Source of the DNA: a virus
Length of the DNA: 31,865 nucleotides
Virus record (IMG/VR): IMGVR_UViG_3300030104_004962
Location: 1-31,865 of that record
Reading direction: 5' to 3' (one strand)
Position 1 is the first letter of the stretch. Each line of letters starts with the position of its first letter. The translations under genes and the position numbers were made by a program. This document shows, one piece after another, positions 3,421 through 19,500 of this stretch. The notes below the pieces were generated by a model, which saw only the letters and a program-made list of their open reading frames with translations, had not been told where the DNA came from and made no database searches.

Positions 3421-6400
3421 ATGGCAAACATTCAAAGAAATTTTATCGCGGGAAGGATGAACAAATCTCTCGACGAGAGGCTTGTACCGAATGGGGAGTA
3501 CATAGACGCTTTAAATGTAAGGCTTGGGTCTACTGAAGCTTCAGAAATAGGGTCGGTAGAAAACTCTAAAGGTAATACCAAGATGACTAGTTTGCAGTAT
3601 GAGCAAACAGGGAGTATTTCAGGGGCCACATTGTTAAGCGACCAAGCGCGATGTATAGGGGCTTATGAAGATGGCCAAAATAATAGGATTTATTGGTTTG
3701 TTCATGACCCTGCATTTACTGTAGGAAATACAGGAAAAATAGACATGATCGTCTCTTTTAATCCTACCACTGAAAACCTTACCTACCATATTATTAGCAT
3801 AGATGATGGGTTCGCTGTTAATACTACTTTGAATTTTAACCCTCAGTATTTAATTACTGCTATAGATTTAGTAGATGATTTACTGTTTTTTACTGACAAT
3901 ATAAATCCGCCACGATTTATAAATGTTACTCAAAATTACCCTAACCCATTTTATAACATAGACCAAACAACGCCGGAAGAATTCATGGTGGTTAAAAAAC
4001 CTCCTATTAAAGCTCCCTCTATAGTTTTAAAGCAACAGATAAACAACTTAGATGATTTTTTAGAAACTAGATTTATATGTTTTGCTTATAGATACCAGTA
4101 TCCTAACGGAGAGTTTTCCGCTACATCTCAGTGGTCTGAACCAGCTTTCGATCCCGGCAATTATGGGTATGATTATGCAACAAATTTAAACGAGGGAATG
4201 GTAAATACGGTTACCGGAGTAGACGTGGTTTTTAATTCCGGAGGCGCTTTAGTAGAAAGTATTGAAATACTCTATAAGGAAATAACAGATGATACTATTA
4301 AAATTGTAGATAAATTATCTAAAAACTTACAAGGATTTGCCCACAATACTGAGTACTCTTTTACTTTTGATAACAGCAAAATATTTACTATTCTTCCTTC
4401 AACAGAGCTGTTAAGGCTTTATGATAACGTGCCGATTAAAGCTTTAGGCCAAACTATAATGGGAAACCGTTTAGTTTATGGTAATTATATAGAGGGCTAT
4501 GATTTAAAAGACATATTTAACAACCCAGTAAAATTAGAATTTCAAACTAATCTGGTTGAAAACACTATTCAAAACACTACTTTAACCGCAAGCACCGACA
4601 CAGGAGCTTATACTTTTGGCAGCTCTCAATCTATCAATAACTCTGTTGCTGTAATAGATTTTTCTGCTCTAGACCCTTTGACTCAGTTTAAAGCGGGTAC
4701 GTCTTTTACTATTTATTTTACTTTCGAGCATTCAATATACGACCCAACAGCTAGTCAGCCCACTACTACTACACAAAATACAGAGGTTCAATTTGCCTAC
4801 ACGTTGCCTCAAGACTATACATCTTTATACGATTTAGTCGCTGCTACTGATTTTCAAGAGGCGATTGGAACCGCCTCTAATATTAAACCTGTTTATGACG
4901 CCGTTAACCCTACCTCATGCGCAGGGTTTACCTTAACAGACTTAGTTAACTGCTATGTCCCTACAACTCAAACTACTTCTACAGGAACGGTAACTAAGTT
5001 TTCAAGTGGTATTACTGCAGCAGGAGAGCCTATAGCTATTGTAAATAACACCCCTGGCTCAAGCAGTCTTAAACTTCAATTGCCTGCAATAAGATATGTT
5101 ACCGACCCCGCAGTACCTAGTGGCGGATGGTATGAGTATTATAAAATAATATCTTTAAACGCTTCGTTTAGCTCAGTTTCTAATCCTAAAAGCTTACATA
5201 GTAATAGGGGATATGAAATAGGAGTGGTGTATATGGATGAATTTTTAAGATCTTCCACCGCTCTTGTTAGCCCTACTAACACTATTCAAATCCCGTGTTC
5301 TAATTCTAGATCTCAAAATCAAATACAGGTAAGTATTCCTTGGGCACAAAGAGCTCCCTACTGGGCTAAATATTATAAATTCGTTTTAAAGCCTAATCAA
5401 TCAACTTATGAAACTATTTATAGCGAAACGTTTTTTAAAGACCCTGAGAGCTCTAGCTACTACTTTTTATTAGAGGGAGAGAATGCATCCAAAGTTGAAA
5501 CCGGTCAAAGACTGATAGTCAAAAGAGATAGCGGAGGAGCGGTAGAGCAATGCGTTGAAGCTGTGGTAACCGATAAACAAGTTCAGTCTCCTGATTTTTT
5601 AAAACTTAGAAATCCTTTTGACACTACTACCTATAGCACGGAGCCTCCTGACAATCCTTTTGAGGTAGGGTATTACATTAGTGTTCCTGGAGGAGCCTAC
5701 ATGGAAATTGTTCCTAGTGGATTTAATATAACTTCCTCGGAAACGGTTGGGGGAAGTAGAGTAGCTCATCCAGCGATACGCTCGACATTTCCCAGGAGGC
5801 AGAAAACCAGAGGGTTTCCTATTGGGCGAGCTTTAGTAAATGTAAAAAATTTAGATCCTAGCGCTTCATCAACAGCGCAATATATTGACTATGACATCCC
5901 CGTTAATAGCCAAATTAACATAACTATTAAGCAAAGACGAGAAGGAAAAAAAGGGGGATTTTTAGGGGCATGTGAATACAGGTATAACACTTATGAGTCT
6001 CCAGATTTATTCGCTTCTACGAATTACGCCAATTTTCAAGCGTGGTTTGAAGGAGACAATATTGGGGATTTAATTACTCAAAATAGCATAGTAGATAACG
6101 GCGATGGTAGCGCAACTACAAACACTTATATTCCTGGGACCCCAATTGACGGAACTGCTTCAGGACTAAACGTGAGCGAGCCACCGGAAACTATAAAAGA
6201 CACGGATAAAAATCCTTTTATACCTGTAGCTTTTTCGACTAATTCATATCAGTTTTTTAACGCTAACGATGGATCAAAATGGCTTTTAGCTACGGGAGCT
6301 GTGAGCTGTAAGTCTGGCGCGTTTAATATTGGTGGGCATGCGTCTAATGTGGAAATGGAAATTACGGTGCAAAGAGCAGACCAAGGAGGAGTGGTTGTTT

Positions 6401-9156
6401 TTGAGAGCCTTCCTTCGGATGCGCAGCCAGATATATGGTATGAAAATGAACTTAATTTTAATGTTAGCGCTAATGGTGAACATGAAGGAAATGTTAGCAA
6501 TCAAAACGTATTAACAAAAACTGGTGCGGTTATAGACACAGGTTTCTTTAATTGTTACGCTTTTGGGAATGGAGTGGAAAGCTACACGGTAAGAGATTCT
6601 ATAAAAGGACAAGCTTTAGCTTTAGGGAACAGAGTGACTACAACGTCAGGACAAGATTATAAAGAAGCGCATAGGTTTGCCGACTTAACTTATAGCGGAG
6701 TGTATAATGATGAGTCTAACGTAAATAAACTTAATGAGTTTAACTTAGGGTTAGTAAATTATAAAACTTTAGAAGACTCTTTTGGATCTATTCAAAAACT
6801 ACATGCTAGAAAAACAGACATACTTACCCTCCAAGAAGATAAAATCTCTTACGTATTAGCAGGGAAAGATTTGCTTACAGACGCTGGAGGCACTGGCTCT
6901 TTAACTTCAGTACCTGAAGTACTAGGGCAACAAATCTCACGTATTGAAGAATATGGAATTAGTAGAAACCCTGAAAGTTTTGCAGTATTTGGGGCGGACA
7001 AATTTTTTACTGACGAGCAAAGAGGAGCTGTTATACAATTAAAAGGAGGGGCTTATAATCAAGAGTCATTAACAGTAATCTCGGAGCAAGGAATGAGGTC
7101 TTGGTTTAGAGATTTATTCCATGCTAATTTTGATGCTCAAAAACTGGGAGGCTTTGACCCTTACATGAACGAGTATGTTTTATCAGCTAACAGTATTACT
7201 TTACCATTTGTAGGCAATTGTGATTTGTGTGGCAGTTCACGTAATATAACTATTCCTATAGGGGAAACAATCTCTTATTGTGTAAATGTAACGGAGGAAG
7301 TAGGCACGGTAGAGATTGAATTTGTTATTCCAAGCGGAGGAAACTCTAACGTTATTACTGAAGCTAATACCCCGGCTGCTAGCGCAGGGTTAGTTAACAT
7401 AATGGCAGAAACCAATTCAGTGGCTTCGTCGGGAGGAGAGATTGTGGTGGAAGATTCTACATCAAACAACACCTATACTATTACCGCTTTGTATAATGGG
7501 ACCGTTACGACTGTAACGACTTCAGTTAATGGAATTTTAACTGTAGCTAAAAATTCAGTATATGCTAGCGACTTAACTGTTGAAGTGTCTTCTAACAGTA
7601 TTAACGTAGACACTATAGAGATTACAGTAAATTGTCCTGTTCCAGATGAAATATCCATAATCCAAGTAGGAATAGGAAGTAATGCAGATAGAGGTAAATT
7701 TATTCACAACGAATATAGGTGGCAAGATGGCTTGTTTAACTCGCCTCTTCATAGCGAACAGATGGAGTTTGCAAGTGGAACTGAAAATCCTTTAGTTGGA
7801 CAATATTTATCTTTAACAGGAAGTCAAGGAGCGGGAGTAATTCCGGACGATGATGCTAAAGTTTTTATTATTAGTAATAAAATAAAATTTGATGATTATG
7901 ATTTTTCTCCTAATACTAATAATTTTAGATACTTAAGATCTTCTACTTTATATGGGAACATAACCTCTGAAATAATAACTTTATTAGCCGCCTCTACCTC
8001 TGCTACGCCTATTGAAAATAATAGCCCTGAATTCTTTGCGACTTTTACTATGCCTAGTGGAGCTACTGGGGATAATTTATATTTAATTTATGACTATAGA
8101 GATTCAACAGAAGTTCAGTTATGTTATTCAACTGTAGATTTAAACGATGTTTGTTGTGTGGGTTGTAATGTAGAACCTACGCCGGTTCCAACTCCTTCAC
8201 CTACGCCTGGCCCGATAACGTGTACTTCTTACTCATTAGCGTCGCCATCAACGTGTACTTCTTATTCGGTGCAAGCCACTGTTGATACACTAAATATTGC
8301 TTTTACCAATTGTGATGGTTCTACAGGCGAAATAAAAGGGCTGCCACCTGGGGATGAAGTAGATGTATGTTCTACTGTTACTCCAGTTACACTTCCAGCC
8401 ACAGCAATAATAACCCCAGGATCAAATTGCGGGGGAACCACAAACACTTTTACCTGGTTGGGTTGCAACGGAACTCAATTACAAGAAACAGTAGGTGGGG
8501 GAACTAGCAGTACGGTTTGCGCTCGAAACATTCCTATTAGAACTCAAGGAGTTACCGGGACGGTAACAGCGGCCTCTACGTGTACAGAGTATTATTATGC
8601 GGCTATTCAATGTGGTCCAGGGGGAAGAAGAGTATTTTTATCGGCAACCGCCTCTGTACCTTTGGTGGGCGCAGGTAATATTGTTTATTATGATGAAATA
8701 AATTTAGCCGGAAATAATATCCCTATAAGAAAATGCGCGACTATAGAAAAAATCAACTGGGGTAATGGAGCTGATGGATCAATAGTGGGGCAAGCATCCT
8801 CGTGTAAGGACACTACGAATTGTCCGCCTCCACCCTCTCAAGCTGCAAACCCGGTGTGGCTATTTAGTGCAACTCAAGGAAATGGAGCGCTTTTTGATAC
8901 GGATTTAGTTTGCGGTACTTCTGTGTTTTGTTCGGATCCTGTATATACTTCGGTTACGTCTCCGGGTAATTTATTTTCGGGTGACACCCTGTTCTTTAGC
9001 GATCGACAATTTAATAAACCATTTAATGGAGATGCTTTATTTTATGGATTTAGAGCTCCTGTGACAGGCACGGTTTTACCTACTCCTGGATTTATGGAAG
9101 GATGGGTTCAAATTAGCAATGACGGAAGAGTAATATCATATTTAATTTGTCCTTAA
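3421..9156 (+). CDS. Giant tail nozzle/stabilisation-like protein with Cys-rich C-terminal modules (1911 aa)
   Basis: The N-terminus has RNFIAGRMNKSLDERL, then VPNGEYIDALNVRL and a run beginning GSTEASEIGSVEN. From memory this signature marks podovirus tail nozzle or DNA-stabilisation proteins (T7 gp12 or P22 gp10 class, beta-propeller). Beta-rich sequence continues to about residue 1260 and includes FGADKFFTDEQRGAVIQL and FDPYMNEYVLS. Residues about 1267-1410 look like an inserted beta-sandwich (Thr/Val/Ser-rich, bounded by Cys). The nozzle-type sequence then resumes. A Pro-Thr linker (PTPVPTPSPTPGP, residues 1586-1598) leads to a Cys-rich C-terminal part of about 310 residues. One unit there (about 1723-1780, YYYAAIQCGPGG) resembles units in the next protein. 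This suggests that host-recognition domains are fused to the nozzle. No signal peptide is seen; it should act in the virion. Confidence 0.8.
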   Translation: MANIQRNFIAGRMNKSLDERLVPNGEYIDALNVRLGSTEASEIGSVENSKGNTKMTSLQYEQTGSISGATLLSDQARCIGAYEDGQNNRIYWFVHDPAFTVGNTGKIDMIVSFNPTTENLTYHIISIDDGFAVNTTLNFNPQYLITAIDLVDDLLFFTDNINPPRFINVTQNYPNPFYNIDQTTPEEFMVVKKPPIKAPSIVLKQQINNLDDFLETRFICFAYRYQYPNGEFSATSQWSEPAFDPGNYGYDYATNLNEGMVNTVTGVDVVFNSGGALVESIEILYKEITDDTIKIVDKLSKNLQGFAHNTEYSFTFDNSKIFTILPSTELLRLYDNVPIKALGQTIMGNRLVYGNYIEGYDLKDIFNNPVKLEFQTNLVENTIQNTTLTASTDTGAYTFGSSQSINNSVAVIDFSALDPLTQFKAGTSFTIYFTFEHSIYDPTASQPTTTTQNTEVQFAYTLPQDYTSLYDLVAATDFQEAIGTASNIKPVYDAVNPTSCAGFTLTDLVNCYVPTTQTTSTGTVTKFSSGITAAGEPIAIVNNTPGSSSLKLQLPAIRYVTDPAVPSGGWYEYYKIISLNASFSSVSNPKSLHSNRGYEIGVVYMDEFLRSSTALVSPTNTIQIPCSNSRSQNQIQVSIPWAQRAPYWAKYYKFVLKPNQSTYETIYSETFFKDPESSSYYFLLEGENASKVETGQRLIVKRDSGGAVEQCVEAVVTDKQVQSPDFLKLRNPFDTTTYSTEPPDNPFEVGYYISVPGGAYMEIVPSGFNITSSETVGGSRVAHPAIRSTFPRRQKTRGFPIGRALVNVKNLDPSASSTAQYIDYDIPVNSQINITIKQRREGKKGGFLGACEYRYNTYESPDLFASTNYANFQAWFEGDNIGDLITQNSIVDNGDGSATTNTYIPGTPIDGTASGLNVSEPPETIKDTDKNPFIPVAFSTNSYQFFNANDGSKWLLATGAVSCKSGAFNIGGHASNVEMEITVQRADQGGVVVFESLPSDAQPDIWYENELNFNVSANGEHEGNVSNQNVLTKTGAVIDTGFFNCYAFGNGVESYTVRDSIKGQALALGNRVTTTSGQDYKEAHRFADLTYSGVYNDESNVNKLNEFNLGLVNYKTLEDSFGSIQKLHARKTDILTLQEDKISYVLAGKDLLTDAGGTGSLTSVPEVLGQQISRIEEYGISRNPESFAVFGADKFFTDEQRGAVIQLKGGAYNQESLTVISEQGMRSWFRDLFHANFDAQKLGGFDPYMNEYVLSANSITLPFVGNCDLCGSSRNITIPIGETISYCVNVTEEVGTVEIEFVIPSGGNSNVITEANTPAASAGLVNIMAETNSVASSGGEIVVEDSTSNNTYTITALYNGTVTTVTTSVNGILTVAKNSVYASDLTVEVSSNSINVDTIEITVNCPVPDEISIIQVGIGSNADRGKFIHNEYRWQDGLFNSPLHSEQMEFASGTENPLVGQYLSLTGSQGAGVIPDDDAKVFIISNKIKFDDYDFSPNTNNFRYLRSSTLYGNITSEIITLLAASTSATPIENNSPEFFATFTMPSGATGDNLYLIYDYRDSTEVQLCYSTVDLNDVCCVGCNVEPTPVPTPSPTPGPITCTSYSLASPSTCTSYSVQATVDTLNIAFTNCDGSTGEIKGLPPGDEVDVCSTVTPVTLPATAIITPGSNCGGTTNTFTWLGCNGTQLQETVGGGTSSTVCARNIPIRTQGVTGTVTAASTCTEYYYAAIQCGPGGRRVFLSATASVPLVGAGNIVYYDEINLAGNNIPIRKCATIEKINWGNGADGSIVGQASSCKDTTNCPPPPSQAANPVWLFSATQGNGALFDTDLVCGTSVFCSDPVYTSVTSPGNLFSGDTLFFSDRQFNKPFNGDALFYGFRAPVTGTVLPTPGFMEGWVQISNDGRVISYLICP
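8217..8267 (+). repeat. 33-bp tandem repeat within the nozzle gene
   Basis: AACGTGTACTTCTTACTC at 8217-8234 recurs with one mismatch at 8250-8267. It encodes TCTSYS twice with an 11-residue period, directly after the Pro-Thr linker. It looks like a recent in-frame duplication at the edge of the Cys-rich modules. Confidence 0.75.
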
Positions 9157-9176: not shown

Positions 9177-11432
9177 ATGGCAACAGCTGGATTATATTAC
9201 ATAGACACTTTTAACTTTGCAGACGCTACTGCAGTCTATACTGATGCGGCTTTGACTACTTTTGCGCCAGATGGGTTTTATCAAATGGGGGGAGAAACTG
9301 CCCGTGAGCAAATAAGTGGTGTTTTAAAACCAGCAGAACCTTGCCCTTCGTGTGTAAAGCCTTCACCGGATCCTACACCTAATTTTATAATTTCATATAA
9401 AGCTATAGATAAAGTTACGAGCGCTGTAGATTATGTGCTCGCCGACACTAATTATAGTTTAAACCAAGAAGTTACTACTGATATATCAGCTAACTGTTGG
9501 CTTTTACAGCAATTCTCGGACGTCAGCACCTCAAACACCATCACAGGTTTATGCGTGCCTATTCCGCCAGATCAACCTGTATATTACGAGTTAAGGTTAT
9601 GTCCCGCTTCTAGCACTACGGGCGCACCAGACTCTATATATACCTCTATAGTCCCTACGCTCACTCAAAAAAGATATTTATATACTATATATGCGGCATA
9701 TTATCTATATGAAAATGCCCAACCTGTTGCTACTCCACTGCCTGGTATTCCTTTAATAGAAACCGGGCTCTCACTAGAGGCTCAGGCTACGTGCCCAGCG
9801 CCAGTGACAAAGTATAGTTATTGGAACGCTCAAAATTGTCAGACGCTAGCGACAAGAGTTTTCCGAGCTCCACTACAAACATTTTTTGTAGCAGGTGAGT
9901 CGGTAAAACATACTACTAGCGGAGGTTTTGTTACGTGTTATGAAATAACTGGAGCGCGTATAGGAAAGGACACCTCTTACGATTTAGAATATTTAGGTTC
10001 AGATCCTGTATACACAGGATGTACTACGGGTGCTTCCCCATGTATAGTAGCTGCTCCTACTAACACTTCGTTCTTAGCTAGAGAGACAACAACTAGCTTG
10101 GAGTATCATGTTCTATTTGATTCAAGTTTTAAAGTAAACGATAACGTAGAGATACAAGCTAGCGGCGGTGTACAAATTGCAGGGTGCTACAAATTAGTTG
10201 ACCAGTCTACTACTCCTACCACTAACACAATAGTAAATTTCTGCCCTGGTGTTACGGGCTGCGGCGTTTATAATGTGTCTGGGATAGGCACATGGAAACG
10301 ATGTAAAGATGGAGCTGTTCAAAACGAAGATTTCACCTTAGTTCCTAACGCTCAAGTATGTGCTCAGCTAGGTACGGCGTCTTTTTCAGGAGGCACACCG
10401 ACACAAGTAGGGGTTTGTAATCAAGACATAATTACCCCCCCAGGAACTACGTTTGACTATTTCAATGCTAAGCTGTGTGATGGTACAGGAGGAACAATAA
10501 GCGTTAAAACAGACGGTGTAAGACCGACGGTAGGGCAAGCGGTAAAAATAAACAGCGGATCAACATGTTATATAATAACTAGCACAGGAGGTTCTACTTT
10601 AGCTACCGATGTTATTACTAATATTTCTAATAATTGCAACCAGTGTAACCCTCCCGTCTCTTGCTATGCGCATAGCGTTGAATACAGCTCTAGCGCAACT
10701 GTTTGTCCAGATGGACAATCTGGAACTTTTGGAGTTACTTTTGCGGACACTAATGACTTTGCTACGGCTACTAAATTATTTAGCAGCGACGGATGTGTTA
10801 GCAGCTCGCCTGCAAACATAGGTACATACGCTGTAACTAGTGGAGGAACTAAAATATCTAGATATTGGGACGGTACAACTCTGGGACCAATTACTACCTG
10901 CAGTACTACGCCTCAACAAATAACAGGAACCATCACCACTATAGATAACAAAATACAAGGCGCCGCGTTAGGTGTAGGATATACCTTAACCGGATCGGGT
11001 CTTAATTCCACTACAACAGGATCGTCGCCTCTATCAATTGGAAGCCCTGCATTTAACACAGACGTATCTGTAAATAGCGGGTTTAGCATAACAGGAAAAA
11101 ACATAACATACAACCCTACAAGCATTACACAAGACTCTTCTATTACTGTAACGATAGAAGGAACAATTTCAATAGACACACCGGCCAACGTATATAGCGT
11201 GTTGACTTGTGGTAATAATCTAGTGTATAGTGTTGATTCAGGGGCTCAAACTTTATCCCCTGGTCAGGTTATCAGATTGCAACCCGATAATGGAGATCCA
11301 GCTAAATGTGCTAGAGTGATGTCTACCACACCTTCCCCAAAAAATGCAGAGTTTATAGATTTTGTAACAAACAATGGATGTGATAATATTAGCTGTGTAT
11401 CGGCAGGGTTTGACTTTGGCTTTGCCTTCTAA
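9177..11432 (+). CDS. Cys-rich modular tail adhesin / fibre-like protein (751 aa)
   Basis: The N-terminus has the block YYIDTFNFADATAVYTDAAL, then APDGFYQMGGETAREQISG and a CPSC pair. From memory such blocks occur in tail-fibre-like proteins of Bacteroidota phages. The rest is built from beta-rich, Thr/Ser/Gly-rich modules containing paired cysteines. One starts near residue 212 (YSYWNAQNCQ, ending CYEITG). A second starts near 426 (FDYFNAKLCDGTGG, ending CYIITS). A partial one lies near 682-751 (SPGQVIRLQ, then CARVMS). The pattern is aromatic-N-A-x-x-C, a V-x-G-x-x-V strand, then C-Y-x-I. Related modules end the preceding nozzle gene. A host-receptor adhesin is the likeliest role. The gene is followed by a glycosyltransferase gene, and its many Ser/Thr residues make it a possible substrate. 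Function is inferred, not shown. Confidence 0.7.
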   Translation: MATAGLYYIDTFNFADATAVYTDAALTTFAPDGFYQMGGETAREQISGVLKPAEPCPSCVKPSPDPTPNFIISYKAIDKVTSAVDYVLADTNYSLNQEVTTDISANCWLLQQFSDVSTSNTITGLCVPIPPDQPVYYELRLCPASSTTGAPDSIYTSIVPTLTQKRYLYTIYAAYYLYENAQPVATPLPGIPLIETGLSLEAQATCPAPVTKYSYWNAQNCQTLATRVFRAPLQTFFVAGESVKHTTSGGFVTCYEITGARIGKDTSYDLEYLGSDPVYTGCTTGASPCIVAAPTNTSFLARETTTSLEYHVLFDSSFKVNDNVEIQASGGVQIAGCYKLVDQSTTPTTNTIVNFCPGVTGCGVYNVSGIGTWKRCKDGAVQNEDFTLVPNAQVCAQLGTASFSGGTPTQVGVCNQDIITPPGTTFDYFNAKLCDGTGGTISVKTDGVRPTVGQAVKINSGSTCYIITSTGGSTLATDVITNISNNCNQCNPPVSCYAHSVEYSSSATVCPDGQSGTFGVTFADTNDFATATKLFSSDGCVSSSPANIGTYAVTSGGTKISRYWDGTTLGPITTCSTTPQQITGTITTIDNKIQGAALGVGYTLTGSGLNSTTTGSSPLSIGSPAFNTDVSVNSGFSITGKNITYNPTSITQDSSITVTIEGTISIDTPANVYSVLTCGNNLVYSVDSGAQTLSPGQVIRLQPDNGDPAKCARVMSTTPSPKNAEFIDFVTNNGCDNISCVSAGFDFGFAF

Positions 11433-11470: not shown

Positions 11471-12694
11471 ATGAAATCTATATTTGTTCAGATAGCTAGC
11501 TATCGTGATCCTGAGCTTATTCCTACTATTAAAGACTTAATTGAAAAAGCTTCTAACCCAGAAAACTTAAAGATATGTATAGCTCATCAATATAGTGAAG
11601 AAGATGAGTGGGACCGATTAGATCAGTTTGCTGATGACGCCCGGTTTACGGTTATTCAAATTCCTTATCTAGAGTCTCAAGGGACTTGTTGGGCGCGGAA
11701 TGAAATACAGCGTCATTATAATGGCGAAGACTATACGTTACACTTAGATTCTCATCACAGATTTTGTAAAGACTGGGATAAGGAGTGTATTGATATTATA
11801 ACTAACCTTCAAAAAGAAGGGTTTAAAAAACCTTTGCTTACCTCCTACTGCCCAGCTTATGAATTGCCGAGTGAACAAAAAAGAGACGGCGCGGTTTATG
11901 GTATGCGACTAAACACATGGAAAGACGGGGTAGCTTTATTTCACCCCTTTGAGCTGGAGAAAAGCGCAGCTCCTGTCCCTGCAAGGTTTTATTCAGGACA
12001 CTTTGCTTTTACATTAGGGCAGTTTTGTAAAGAGGTTCCTCACGATCCTTTAATGTATTTTTATGGGGAAGAAATATCTATATCGGTTAGAGCTTATACT
12101 CATGGCTATGATTTGTTTGCACCTCACAAGCATTTAGTGTGGCATGAATATACTAGAGAAGGGCGCTCCAAACATTGGGATGATCACAGCCGATGGTTTG
12201 ATAGGGATAACGCTTCTAAAGCACGAACACGTCAACTTCTTGGAGTAAACGGAGAAGTGTGTTCCCCTTGTAACAAAAACACTTTTAAAGAATATGGGTT
12301 AGGAGAAGTAAGGACACTTGAAGAATATGAAGTATATGCGGGGGTTAATTTTAAAAATCAAACTATTACTCATCGCTGCAAACGCAACTTACCTCCCCCA
12401 GGAATTCCCGGAGATTCGCTCTATTATGAGGCTAAGGAGTATCAAATTAAATTAAACAAATACGACTTCCTGTATAACGACATTGCTTTTGCAACCGTTG
12501 TAATGGAAGATGATGCTGGCATGGTGGTTCACCAAGACACGATAACTATTGAGGAAATAAAAACCCTTAAACAAGAAGATTTACCTTACATAACTGTTAC
12601 CCGCAGTGTAACAGGAGCAAACCCTTTGAGGTATTTAATATGGCCATATAGTCAAAGCCATGGATGGGGAGACAAAGTGGTTAGTTATTTTTAG
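11471..12694 (+). CDS. GT60-like (Skp1-type GlcNAc) glycosyltransferase (407 aa)
   Basis: The N-terminal 250 residues match the family of UDP-GlcNAc-dependent transferases typified by Skp1 GlcNAc transferase (Pfam GlcNAc, CAZy GT60). The start IFVQIASYRDPEL is the usual opening Rossmann strand. LHLDSHHRFCKDWD (residues 90-103) carries the D-S-H metal/sugar-nucleotide motif at D93-H95. MYFYGEEISISVRAYTHGYD (195-214) carries the family's GEE and THGYD blocks, followed by APHK and WHEYTR. Residues about 300-407 form an extra beta-type domain beginning KRNLPPPGIPGD. The enzyme should move a sugar from a nucleotide donor to a protein or glycan in the cytoplasm. Lying between two tail genes, it may glycosylate a virion protein. 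The substrate is unknown. Confidence 0.85.
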   Translation: MKSIFVQIASYRDPELIPTIKDLIEKASNPENLKICIAHQYSEEDEWDRLDQFADDARFTVIQIPYLESQGTCWARNEIQRHYNGEDYTLHLDSHHRFCKDWDKECIDIITNLQKEGFKKPLLTSYCPAYELPSEQKRDGAVYGMRLNTWKDGVALFHPFELEKSAAPVPARFYSGHFAFTLGQFCKEVPHDPLMYFYGEEISISVRAYTHGYDLFAPHKHLVWHEYTREGRSKHWDDHSRWFDRDNASKARTRQLLGVNGEVCSPCNKNTFKEYGLGEVRTLEEYEVYAGVNFKNQTITHRCKRNLPPPGIPGDSLYYEAKEYQIKLNKYDFLYNDIAFATVVMEDDAGMVVHQDTITIEEIKTLKQEDLPYITVTRSVTGANPLRYLIWPYSQSHGWGDKVVSYF

Positions 12695-12721: not shown

Positions 12722-13516
12722 ATGCCTGATTATACTTTAACATATAGCGAAACATCTAAAGGATGGCCTTCTTTCTATTCCTATTACCCAGAATACATGG
12801 TGGGAATGAACAATTATTTATATTCTTTTTCTGGAGGCAATATTTATCAGCACAATACTAATGTAGTTAGAAATAATTACTACGGGGTGCAGGGGATATC
12901 GGAAATTACTAGTGTGTTTAATGACGATCCTTTAACTAATAAAATATTTAAAACAGTGAATTTAGAGGCGGACACTGCGTGGACTGCTTCGTTAGAAACA
13001 GACCTTCCTAACACAGGGCTAATTGATTACAGTTGGTTTGTGCAAAAAGAAGGAGATTGGTTTGCGTACATTAGAACTGCAGGCGGAGATCCGGCAGAGT
13101 TAACTGAGTATGCGCTTCGGTCTATGAATGGTATTGCTCAAAGTTTATCGGTTACCGGGACAGCTAACACGCCTATTGTAAATTTTGCCACGACTATAAA
13201 CATAGGGAATATTATAAGTATAGGAGATAGTCTTTATTCCGCCAACCCTCCATATACAGGGCCTACCTTAATTGGAACCGTAACGGTAATAGAGGTGGAT
13301 CTGGTAAATGGAATCAATAGAATAACTGTTGACGCAACTGTCGCTGGTGGGGCTGCTCCCACGCTTCAAGATTCTTTTATTTTATACATTAAGAATCAAG
13401 AAGCTGAGTCTCATGGAGTGTTAGGGCATTATATGAAATTCGTTCTGCAGAATACTGCTACCATACCTACGGAGCTGTTTGCTGTAGAGTCTCAGGTTAT
13501 GAAAAGTAATCCTTAA
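12722..13516 (+). CDS. Conserved phage tail/structural protein (264 aa)
   Basis: The N-terminal block GWPSFYSYYPEYMVGMNNY, followed by LYSFSGGNIYQHN and RNNYYG, then SVFNDDPLTNKIFKTVNLE, is a signature that I recall from structural proteins of marine podo-like phages. KEGDWFAYIRT follows. The region around residues 140-230 is strand-rich (SVTGTANTPIVNF, SIGDSLY, VIEVDLVNGINRITVDATV) and may be a small beta-barrel inserted in the conserved frame. There are no Cys modules or membrane segments. It sits between the glycosyltransferase and acetyltransferase genes, so it is probably a tail component. The exact position in the virion cannot be told from the sequence. Confidence 0.7.
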   Translation: MPDYTLTYSETSKGWPSFYSYYPEYMVGMNNYLYSFSGGNIYQHNTNVVRNNYYGVQGISEITSVFNDDPLTNKIFKTVNLEADTAWTASLETDLPNTGLIDYSWFVQKEGDWFAYIRTAGGDPAELTEYALRSMNGIAQSLSVTGTANTPIVNFATTINIGNIISIGDSLYSANPPYTGPTLIGTVTVIEVDLVNGINRITVDATVAGGAAPTLQDSFILYIKNQEAESHGVLGHYMKFVLQNTATIPTELFAVESQVMKSNP

Positions 13517-13538: not shown

Positions 13539-13949
13539 ATGGAATTTAATATAAGACCATTGAACGACACTGACTATAAAGAAGTTCTTGTAGGCTGGTG
13601 GCGAGATTGGAAATGGACACCTCCGCTTCCTTCATTTTTACCAGACAATGGTAAAGGTGGTATAATGGTTTTAGATAAAGACACCCCTGTTTGCGCAGGG
13701 TTTATATATATGACTAATTCACAAGTAGCTTGGGTAGACTGGATTATATCTAATAAAGATTATAAGAAAAAACCACAGCGTCAAGATGCTTTGACATTAC
13801 TCATTAAAACATTAACAAACATCTGCAAGGATAGCGGTAAGAAATTCAGCTATGCTTTATTAAAAAATAAAAGTTTAATTAAAACATACGAGAATTTAGG
13901 ATATACCGCAGGAGATAACTACACACAAGAAATGATAAAATTATTATAA
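13539..13949 (+). CDS. GNAT-family N-acetyltransferase (136 aa)
   Basis: The length and order fit a minimal GNAT fold. The first strand and helix are FNIRPLNDTDYKEVLVGWW. The central strands are GGIMVLDKDTPVCAGFIYM and AWVDWIISN. The loop and helix after that (KKPQRQDALTLLIKTLTNI) correspond to the acetyl-CoA pyrophosphate-binding motif A, here without the usual glycines. The end has KNKSLIKTYENLGYTAGD, the typical late helix and N-L-G-Y turn. Small GNAT genes of this kind are, from memory, common among phage tail genes. It would acetylate an unknown amine, possibly on a virion protein or a host factor. The stop is followed one base later by the next start. Confidence 0.75.
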   Translation: MEFNIRPLNDTDYKEVLVGWWRDWKWTPPLPSFLPDNGKGGIMVLDKDTPVCAGFIYMTNSQVAWVDWIISNKDYKKKPQRQDALTLLIKTLTNICKDSGKKFSYALLKNKSLIKTYENLGYTAGDNYTQEMIKLL

Positions 13950-13950
13950 C

Positions 13951-14643
13951 ATGGCAGCATTTACAACAATCGCAACTACTGCTTTAGCCGTCGGTGGCGC
14001 AGGAATGAATTTTGCCCAAGCCGCTAAACAAGGGAAGCTACAACGTGAAGCCGAAGCAGATGCAGAAAAAGCAATGAAAGCGGCTCGCGACAAATTACAA
14101 ACAAATTTTTATAAAGGCTTAGATCTAAATCTAAAATCCTTTGAGCAAGAGCGTGATGCTTTAGCTGGCGTTGGACAGCAGCTTATACAGGCTGGCCAAG
14201 AATCAGAAAGGGGAGCTGCCGCAACAGCAGGAAGAGTAATGGCAGGAGTACAAGAAGCAGAAAAAGACATTACCAACAGACAGATACGAAGTCAAGAAAG
14301 TTTGGAGAAGTTAGTGGCCGGCGAAGAGTCACGATTAAATATGGCCGAGACTAGATTGGATTTAGCAGAAGCGGAAGGAGCTCAAGAAGCAGCGGCTGAA
14401 GCAGCTGAGAATGAAGCAGCGGCTATTACCGCAGGGATACAAGGGTTAGGATCAGCAGCAGCTGGTCTATCTGAGTCTTCAGAGCTTTATGGTCAAGATC
14501 GAGATGCAGCGAAAGCTGCTAGGCGTGCAGGCCGAGTAACGGCGGGTAATCCGGAAGGTAAAACTCAAGCAGGTAATTTATTGGCCGGTGTTGGAGGTAA
14601 AATTTCTGGTTTATTTAAGAGTATATTTGGCGGAGGTGATTAA
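13951..14643 (+). CDS. Internal virion / ejection protein, small (T7 gp14-like by type, 230 aa)
   Basis: The N-terminus AFTTIATTALAVGGAGMNFA is a hydrophobic, Gly/Ala-rich segment that could enter a membrane. It is followed by a long Ala/Glu/Gln-rich helix (QREAEADAEKAMKAARDKLQ) and another (AAAEAAENEAAAITAGI), then a Gly-rich tail ending KISGLFKSIFGGGD. This architecture is that of small podovirus ejection proteins that form a channel through the envelope. It lies directly before two much larger ejection-like genes, the same small-to-large order as in T7. Sequence identity to T7 gp14 is not visible, so the call rests on composition and position. Confidence 0.6.
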   Translation: MAAFTTIATTALAVGGAGMNFAQAAKQGKLQREAEADAEKAMKAARDKLQTNFYKGLDLNLKSFEQERDALAGVGQQLIQAGQESERGAAATAGRVMAGVQEAEKDITNRQIRSQESLEKLVAGEESRLNMAETRLDLAEAEGAQEAAAEAAENEAAAITAGIQGLGSAAAGLSESSELYGQDRDAAKAARRAGRVTAGNPEGKTQAGNLLAGVGGKISGLFKSIFGGGD

Positions 14644-16548: not shown

Positions 16549-19500
16549 ATGGATGAGCAATTATTAAAAGATTTTTTAGCAACCGCCCAAGCCAATAAAT
16601 ATGATTGGGAGGTAATAATGCCTAAGTTTCCAGAGCTTGCCGATGTAGATCTTCAAGTATTAAAAGACTACGCAGAAACAGCGAAGCAAAATAATTATGA
16701 CTATGCCGTTACAAACCCCTTGTTTCCAGAACTGTTTCCCCAAGATCCTTTAAAAAAAAAAGACGTTACGGAATCAAGTGGAAAAAATGGTTCTTTGGTC
16801 TCACCTACAATTACTAACACCCCTACTCAAACTACGGACGCTAGTGTTTTGCAGCAAAATGCGTTACAAGCTAGCCCCCGGTCCGATACGGCGGTTTCTA
16901 CTTTAACACCCCCGCCTTCCGTTCCAGAGACAGAAGGAACTGAGAGCATTACACCTGAGTTAATGACTTATGAGGAAGAGTTTGTGGTTCCTCAATTGAA
17001 TTACGAATACGGAAACCAAGGATTTATTTTTGAAGAGTCGGGAGCTTTTGGGGACTCAATGAAAGTTACGGCTGAAAACGGAGAAACTTTGGACGTTAAT
17101 TTAGATGTATTCCTAGATTCAACTAAAACTAAAGAAGCAGCTGCGCTGAAAGATTTTATAGTAAAAAATAAAACGCGCCGAGGATTAAATCAAATGGAGT
17201 CGGAATATATTTCCGCGCAGAAGAAATTTTATAATGAAGAAGAAGTTAATACCGCAGTAACAAAGATTGGCGAGCAAACTTTAGGTTATGTAAAACAAGT
17301 TCAAGAGTATCTTGCAGACAAAGCTAAGTTAGACGAAGAAATGGCGGCGCTCTCAAGCCTTACCGCTCAACAAAGGAGTAGTAAAGGTAAAGAAATCAGC
17401 GCAGTTATGGAAAGGTCTAAAGAGTTAAGAGAGCTTAAAAAGCAGTTAATTAAAGGGCAGTCTGTTTTAGTTAATAATGAAAGAAATTTAAAGGTAGCTG
17501 CAGGTAAATACTTTGACATGCTTGCGGAACAAGGTACCGTAGGAGGCGCAAGTTATAATAGAATTTTAAAAGGAATAGGAAGAATAGCTGCAGGAGCAAC
17601 AAGCTATGCTGTAGATGCCTTAGTCTCAGCGTTGCCTTATGCTGGAATGAATCCTGTAGAGTACCGTCAAATGTTTGTGGATATAGCTCGAGAAAAAGGT
17701 TTAGAAGTTCCCGAAAACTTTAAAAACATGACAGAAGATGAGCTTAAAGAATTTTATTCTGAGGTGGCAAGAACAGAAGAGCTTACCACACAATCTACTA
17801 CGGGACAAACTATTAAAGTTGGTGAAAAAAAAATAACATTTGGCGAAGAAATAGAAGCGGCAGTATATGATAAAGGAAAAAAGACTGTTAAATTTTCTGA
17901 TGATGTTGGATTAGGGGAAGGCCAAGGGCTTTTAGAGGCTATTAGAACAGGAGCTCCTACTCTTCTGGGGGATAAAAATGTGTCCGAACAATATGATCAG
18001 TTAACAAGTGAAGGGTTTTGGGGCGGTGCATGGCTGGGCCTTATGGAGTCTATACCGGCTATGATTGCGCCAGGAGGAGCGGCTGGTATGGCAGCGAGAA
18101 CTGCTATGATGTTTAGTCAAGTATCTGATCATTATGATGAGGAGATGGAAAATAATCCTGAGTTTAAAGACATAACCGAAAACGAAAGGGCTGCATTTAA
18201 ACTTCCAGTAGGAATTGTTGTCGGAGCTTTAGAGGCTATAGGTGTTCGCAACGCTTTGCGTCAATCTCCTTTTTTAAATAAACTTTTATTAAGAATAGCG
18301 GGAAAGACTCCTAAAAATGTTACAGGTAAAACATTTAATGATATAGTGCGCAATGAGATTAATAACATGTTCGCTAAAGGAACTATAGTTGTTACAGCCG
18401 CCGGCTTAGCAGAGTTTGAAACAGGAGCGCTTCAAGAAGTAGCGGACATAAGCGCTAAAAAAGTCTATAATGCTTTTAAAGAAAAAGAAATGTTTGTTAC
18501 TCCTGAAAGCTTTAGCGAGGGAGTTAGTCAAGTTTTAGTCGCCGGAGCTCAAGAAGCTGTGGGAGGTTTTGTTATTGGAACCCCCGGGGCTATAGTAGCG
18601 GCAGCCACAACACAAGATTTTACTCAAGTTGATGATGCTACTTTTGAAATGTTTGAAATATTAACGAGCCAAGACAATAGTTCTAAGTTTACTTATGCTG
18701 AATATAAAAATAAAGTAGCTAATCCTAATGATAAAATGACAAAGGAGGAGGCGGAAGCAGAAATAGCTTTGTTTGAAGAGGTGCAGGGGTTAGTAAAACA
18801 AATACCCACTGATTTATCTACTGAGCAAAAGAAAAAAGCTTTAGGTTTAATGTTGAATAGAAAACAATTAGAAGATTCTAAAGCAGGAAAAGATTCTAGC
18901 TTAACACAGAATATTGATAAAAAAATAGGTGAGATTGATCAGCAGTTGAACAACATATTGTTTACAAAAGAAGCTGAAAGTTCGGCTGATGCTATACCAG
19001 AGATGGAAAAAGAGAAAAAGGGCACGGTGATCGACAAAGGAAAATTAAGCGAAGAACAACAAGATATAGATTCTTTCTTTGGTGAAGATGTAGAAGAAAC
19101 AACTGAAACTGTGCAGTCTAATCTGAGTATTAATAGGGCTGGTGACGTTACTGAAAAGTCACCCGAAACTATTTCGAGAGAAAACGCAGTTATAAAGCTA
19201 GCTAAACTGGGCGCTAAATCTATATCTACTTTGCTTCCTAATACTAGAATTATATTACACGAATCAAACACAGAGTTTGAAAAGTATGGGGGGCCCGGAA
19301 GAGCAGAGCTTATAGGAGATACCATTCATATAAATCTTTCTAAAGCCACCTCCACTACAGTGCCCCACGAAATATTTCACGCGGTATTTTTGAGTAAAAT
19401 TAAAACCGACCCGAGAGCTTCTGCAATTGCAGAGGGCATGATGAAAGCTGTGCGTAAAACTTTACCCGATAACAGCGACCTCGCCAAGAGAATTGATGCT

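Follow-up and report, generated by a model that had tools for sequence, protein, structure and literature searches.

The glycosyltransferase families GT27 and GT60 form one clade, both having DxH in place of DxD, and are linked by O-glycosylation of polypeptide Ser/Thr (PMC7185993). TcOGNT1 of T. cruzi, a GT60 member and a mucin-type UDP-GlcNAc:polypeptide alpha-GlcNAc transferase, places alphaGlcNAc onto Thr of mucins (PMC9472816). Another member, Gnt1 of Toxoplasma, transfers GlcNAc to the hydroxyproline (Hyp) of Skp1 after the action of the prolyl 4-hydroxylase (P4H) PhyA (PMC6939170), the two enzymes making up the Skp1 pathway of Dictyostelium and Toxoplasma. Among viruses, a P4H is known from PBCV-1 (Eriksson et al. 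1999, as cited in PMC9301287; PDB 5c5t), and P4H genes are plentiful in virus data from the Baltic Sea, their use by viruses having been called cryptic (PMC9301287). In mycobacteriophages Che8 and Rita, phage-encoded glycosyltransferases have been proposed to act on virion proteins (Freeman et al. 2023, as cited in PMC11256854). A survey of the open-licence literature yielded nothing relevant on GT60 in phages and, as far as titles or abstracts tell, no treatment of phage hydroxyproline glycosylation or of a crAss-like hydroxylase together with a glycosyltransferase.

The window analysed here, i.e. the whole 31.9 kb stretch of the record IMGVR_UViG_3300030104_004962, derives from a crAss-like phage and harbours a tail operon in which a glycosyltransferase (GT) gene lies between the genes for a Thr-rich appendage protein and for MUZ_C:

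3421..9156, + strand: crAss-like muzzle protein, 1911 aa (PF25731, 4e-9; phrog_14478, 8e-208)
9177..11432, + strand: Thr-rich tail appendage protein, 751 aa, the proposed main acceptor
11471..12694, + strand: PF11397/GT60 glycosyltransferase, 407 aa, ATG start
12722..13516, + strand: MUZ_C, the muzzle C-terminal domain as a gene of its own, 264 aa (PF25729, 1.5e-17), right border of the modification slot
13539..13949, + strand: GNAT-like gene, kept with and without the GT, outside the glycosylation module
13951..14643, + strand: virion structural protein (phrog_13764), downstream in the same likely late operon

From the muzzle gene (3421) to position 16549, neighbouring tail genes are separated by 1-38 nt, which is consistent with one late operon; promoter and terminator scans stayed at chance level. 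The opposite strand of the window holds a replication/recombination block (helicase, primase-like, PDDEXK, ERF). An earlier note on this DNA had described the 407-aa ORF exactly as found here, and had set it between a Ser/Thr- and Cys-rich adhesin and another tail gene. The Thr/Ser richness of the upstream protein and the structural nature of the downstream one hold; the Cys content, however, is unremarkable (~3.8% vs 3.6% in GT-less relatives), and the "tail gene" is properly the crAss muzzle C-terminal domain (PF25729), the 1911-aa protein being the muzzle. The GNAT gene, which the note had offered as a partner in decoration, had to be dropped from that role: it is equally present in GT-less relatives and occurs in all three of the slot states defined below, including the GT-less phi13:2 and MW202828, and, conserved as it is whatever the slot holds, lends no support to a decoration system.

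No match in Pfam or PHROG was obtained for the 751-aa appendage protein. Its N-terminus is a 68-aa anchor domain common to most appendage proteins, from enzyme-bearing and empty slots alike, and its later modules are common to appendage proteins of the P4H class. The muzzle bears a C-terminal extension from residue ~1585 which starts with a TP linker, EPTPVPTPSPTPGP, and the protein is a possible second acceptor. The muzzle of the window is split, with one part at 3421-9156 and MUZ_C as a separate gene at 12722-13516; in other lineages (L036:8942-10801), MUZ_C carries at its N terminus a piece of what is in the window the C-terminal extension of the muzzle.

The GT60-like assignment proposed from the letters alone was borne out by the profile search that the earlier note had suggested. 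The 407-aa protein matches PF11397, "Glycosyltransferase (GlcNAc)", with E=5e-73 and 247 bits (cut-off 21), over positions 97-350 of the 352 of the profile plus an N-terminal stretch (1-44), and phrog_24687 ("glycosyltransferase") over its full length (7e-149). In an alignment of 22 diverse homologues, the other members of which are 25-83% identical to the window GT, D93-S94-H95, W102-D103, G212 and H225 (in "WHEY") are invariant. The layout is that of a GT-A catalytic domain (~1-300, with DSH at 93-95 and H225) followed by a beta-rich C-terminal domain (~321-406). Neither phmmer with P0001 nor a profile search against PDB sequences yielded a credible relative, so relatives were sought by fold instead. 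The full-length structure prediction, likewise suggested earlier, gave a confident AlphaFold2 model (pLDDT 87), the closest solved folds to which are GT27 polypeptide GalNAc-transferases, the enzymes that initiate mucin-type glycans (VIA-align Z 20-23 over ~270 residues), the next family reaching Z 17.6; residues above 321 are barely covered, and no row of this comparison is specific to the C-terminal domain. Profile match and predicted fold together support placing the enzyme in the PF11397/GT60 family, with the GT-A fold of the GT27/GT60 clade. The DxH motif and a C-terminal His are shared with GT27, yet identity to that family is ~14%, and a different domain occupies the position of its C-terminal lectin domain. 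Bacterial and jumbo-phage members have this domain too, and the P4H-paired short form lacks it; since many bacterial homologues match the window GT to about residue 403, it carries no phage specificity. A membrane segment is absent (maximum 19-residue hydropathy 0.71).

The window GT is probably a soluble polypeptide glycosyltransferase that modifies Thr/Ser of the tail appendage of its own phage, an acceptor to which neighbourhood, composition and predicted fold point. The idea that the phage decorates its own tail proteins, already raised in the earlier note, draws its support from context: operon position, synteny, a soluble enzyme, a polypeptide-transferase fold and the combination of P4H, GT and (XP)n in sister phages. 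As for mycobacteriophage virion glycosylation, a phage-encoded GT is proposed to act on virion proteins, the window GT lying among structural genes; there the major capsid protein is concerned, whereas here it would be the tail appendage proteins, accompanied in sister phages by a proline hydroxylase. The order muzzle - appendage - GT - MUZ_C is kept in 12/12 close contigs (67-94% identity) and in further members of the clade (L028-L032 and L141; L033 from the appendage gene on). In total, 20 clade contigs (the window and 19 others) retain the GT, always embedded among tail genes, and its dN/dS of ~0.1 indicates purifying selection. That the gene is a mere passenger (moron) with no virion function would agree with the recruitment of different GT families into the slot, but is highly improbable in view of this dN/dS, its retention in all these contigs and its intact catalytic residues.

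Phage glycosyltransferases that modify the host surface are common, seroconverting glucosyltransferases among them, and the window GT could by analogy alter a host glycan or surface protein, thereby blocking superinfection or changing receptors. Bacterial PF11397 members are widespread, some of them beside type VI secretion genes, and in XacN1 a carbamoyl transferase and a second GT are encoded close to the homologue. The GT60-long relatives (those with the C-terminal domain) of jumbo phages and bacteria lie outside such tail operons, which indicates that the PF11397 family can serve other acceptors. This role is nevertheless unlikely for the window GT, which has no membrane segment, shows no flippase partner and is found among tail genes in 20/20 clade contigs; moreover, slot content covaries with tail-protein composition, and the predicted fold is that of polypeptide transferases. 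A GtrABC-like seroconversion GT in particular, which would be a membrane-spanning transferase accompanied by flippase and bactoprenyl GT genes, was considered and rejected, as the protein lacks a membrane span and its neighbours are structural. DNA glucosyltransferases are likewise known in phages; glycosylation of DNA or of a small metabolite by an enzyme that sits in the tail operon by chance is, however, hardly credible given the conserved position and the peptide-transferase fold, and, for DNA, the searched proteins of the window, which represent part of the genome, include no candidate for making hydroxymethyl bases.

The surroundings of the GT were compared across phages by means of the modification slot, defined as the stretch from the appendage gene to the MUZ_C gene, the latter serving as anchor. 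Three states were found: empty, GT60 alone, and P4H followed by a GT. In 76 dereplicated slots, the residues in (T/V/A/S)-P runs (XP runs) of the muzzle, appendage and MUZ_C proteins were counted. P4H slots had 42-264 such residues in the neighbouring tail proteins (32/32), empty slots 0-8 (37/37) and GT60-only slots 0-30, with L155 (230) as an outlier, statistics that are largely between-lineage, since only ~5 changes on the MUZ_C tree explain the three states and an independent-pairs test of P4H against XP runs on the tree had too few pairs for power. The runs are mostly TP, PP, AP, VP and SP. A GT gene (GTx, GT32, GT60 or O-FucT) is present in 31/32 P4H slots, L055 having P4H alone, and P4H with a varying GT stands beside (X-Pro)n tail proteins in L036/L074, L041, L042/L050, L053, L078, L084 and others. 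A P4H+GT slot next to (Thr/Val/Ala/Ser-Pro)n linkers fits hydroxyproline-type O-glycosylation of tail proteins, and the association of P4H, GT and proline repeats in these sister phages suggests that they sugar-coat their own tail appendages. The outlier L155 is a GT60-only contig from a different lineage, in which the order runs muzzle, 147-aa ORF, GT60, 762-aa ORF, MUZ_C; the 762-aa ORF of L213, near-identical to that of L155, encodes a double Gly_transf_sug (PF04488) protein. L213 and L226 are contigs of metagenome bins (MAGs) assigned to Planctomycetaceae and Gammaproteobacteria which bear crAss-like MUZ_C and GNAT genes, i.e. phage contigs in MAGs.

The slot P4H is related to the P4H structures of Bacillus anthracis, Chlamydomonas and PBCV-1. 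Across 74 sequences, conservation reaches at least 95% both at its iron/2OG residues (H92, D94, H161 and K171) and at a second HxD...H set (H305, D307, H368). The PBCV-1 enzyme is thus a viral sequence relative, although from an algal virus, and the slot P4H differs in having this second conserved half and a GT partner. The most common GT partner, "GTx" (L050:11167-12009 and relatives), has no Pfam or PHROG match, and in fold its model (pLDDT 86) resembles GT-A enzymes, the blood-group A/B transferases and LgtC among them. Some P4H slots contain additional genes for radical-SAM, epimerase/dehydratase, O-fucosyltransferase or carbamoyltransferase proteins. Those to which O-FucT, carbamoyltransferase and GDP-mannose-dehydratase/epimerase genes have been added (L147:5588-9537, L095:2476-5037, L078:11299-13134) suggest more elaborate glycans.

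A Pro-rich tail protein, P4H and GTx also stand in a row in the tape-measure phages L068, L070 and L122 (e.g. L070:5702-11142; the PHROG match for this set was obtained on L070), where XP runs of the tail protein extend to 28 residues, and this trio points to a mobile cassette. It is somewhat more probable than its opposite that crAss-like and other tailed phages share an exchangeable tail cassette of P4H and one of several GTs, at times with an epimerase, O-fucosyltransferase or carbamoyltransferase, that turns X-Pro linkers into Hyp-rich glycoproteins comparable to plant or algal extensins, and of which the window clade is a P4H-free, mucin-like variant. The GT60-long form of the window falls with members from bacteria and jumbo phages, apart from the P4H-paired GT60-short form (support 100), which makes independent recruitment of the two probable.

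The question of the acceptor in the window clade turns on P4H. The GT belongs to the same family as Gnt1, which depends on the Hyp made by PhyA (PMC6939170), P4H and GT60 share a slot in some sister phages, and the muzzle carries the short TP linker; a Hyp-directed enzyme, supplied with Hyp by the host or by an unsequenced phage P4H, would accommodate these facts. The Skp1 analogy of the earlier note accordingly suits the sister phages but fits the window clade poorly. A search for P4H on the window and the other GT60-only contigs (all of them fragments, one of 60.1 kb) found none, and, a complete circular relative genome measuring 60.9 kb, P4H is likely absent from the clade. In addition, XP runs of the window clade are short and eroding, deeper members have lost the XP linkers and still retain the GT, and the separation of GT60-long from the P4H-paired short form also weighs against Hyp, which leaves this reading with a small chance. 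The substrate would differ as well, repeat linkers or Thr of tail proteins standing against the single proline of Skp1. Thr/Ser, as in T. cruzi mucins, is the likeliest acceptor because searches of the window clade turned up no P4H and its GT60 lies outside the P4H-paired lineage. Thr makes up 14.1% of the appendage proteins of the clade on average vs 10.0% in GT-less relatives (p=3e-5), an enrichment that comes mainly from one clade; together with the short, fading XP linkers it puts the Thr/Ser reading first and Hyp second. TcOGNT1 is alike in its CAZy family (via PF11397) and in the Thr acceptors within a Thr-rich surface protein that are proposed here; the window GT differs in that it is cytoplasmic, with no Golgi, belongs to a phage tail operon and has a putative acceptor.

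On the Thr/Ser reading, the GT would be made late, together with the tail proteins, and, as a retaining-type enzyme, would act in the host cytoplasm and attach GlcNAc, or else a related HexNAc, in alpha linkage, most likely to Thr/Ser of its upstream neighbour, the Thr-rich appendage protein, and perhaps also to the TP linker of the muzzle extension. The outcome would be mucin-like O-glycans on the tail tip, which may render the appendages stiff or protease-resistant or alter recognition by receptors or antibodies.

If true, the exchangeable cassette would account for the "cryptic" abundance of P4H genes in marine phages, for which the slot analysis supplies a testable substrate (the X-Pro linkers of the appendage) and a second step (O-glycosylation). 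Phage tails would then bear hydroxyproline-rich or mucin-like glycoproteins, a chemistry usually tied to eukaryotes, with a bearing on adsorption, tail stiffness and the recognition of environmental or gut phages.

Members of these enzyme families were also met in other settings. In L117:4400-7316 and L116:81-3006, the order P4H - radical SAM/SPASM - GT60 is found near head genes (portal-like in both, head-protease-like in L117). An alphaproteobacterial MAG (L289:4938-12293) encodes a 2452-aa P4H-GT60 fusion with eight PF11397 stretches as well as PF13640 and PF13661 (2OG-Fe(II) oxygenase). PF11397 genes are also located within type VI secretion clusters, in L257:2741-12144 and at many enterobacterial loci (L239-L288); the Pfam-assigned neighbours in L257 are TssF, TssG, an ImpA_N protein, a fimbrial-domain protein and an OmpA protein, and glycosylation of the secretion-linked fimbrial-like protein is a possible function there.
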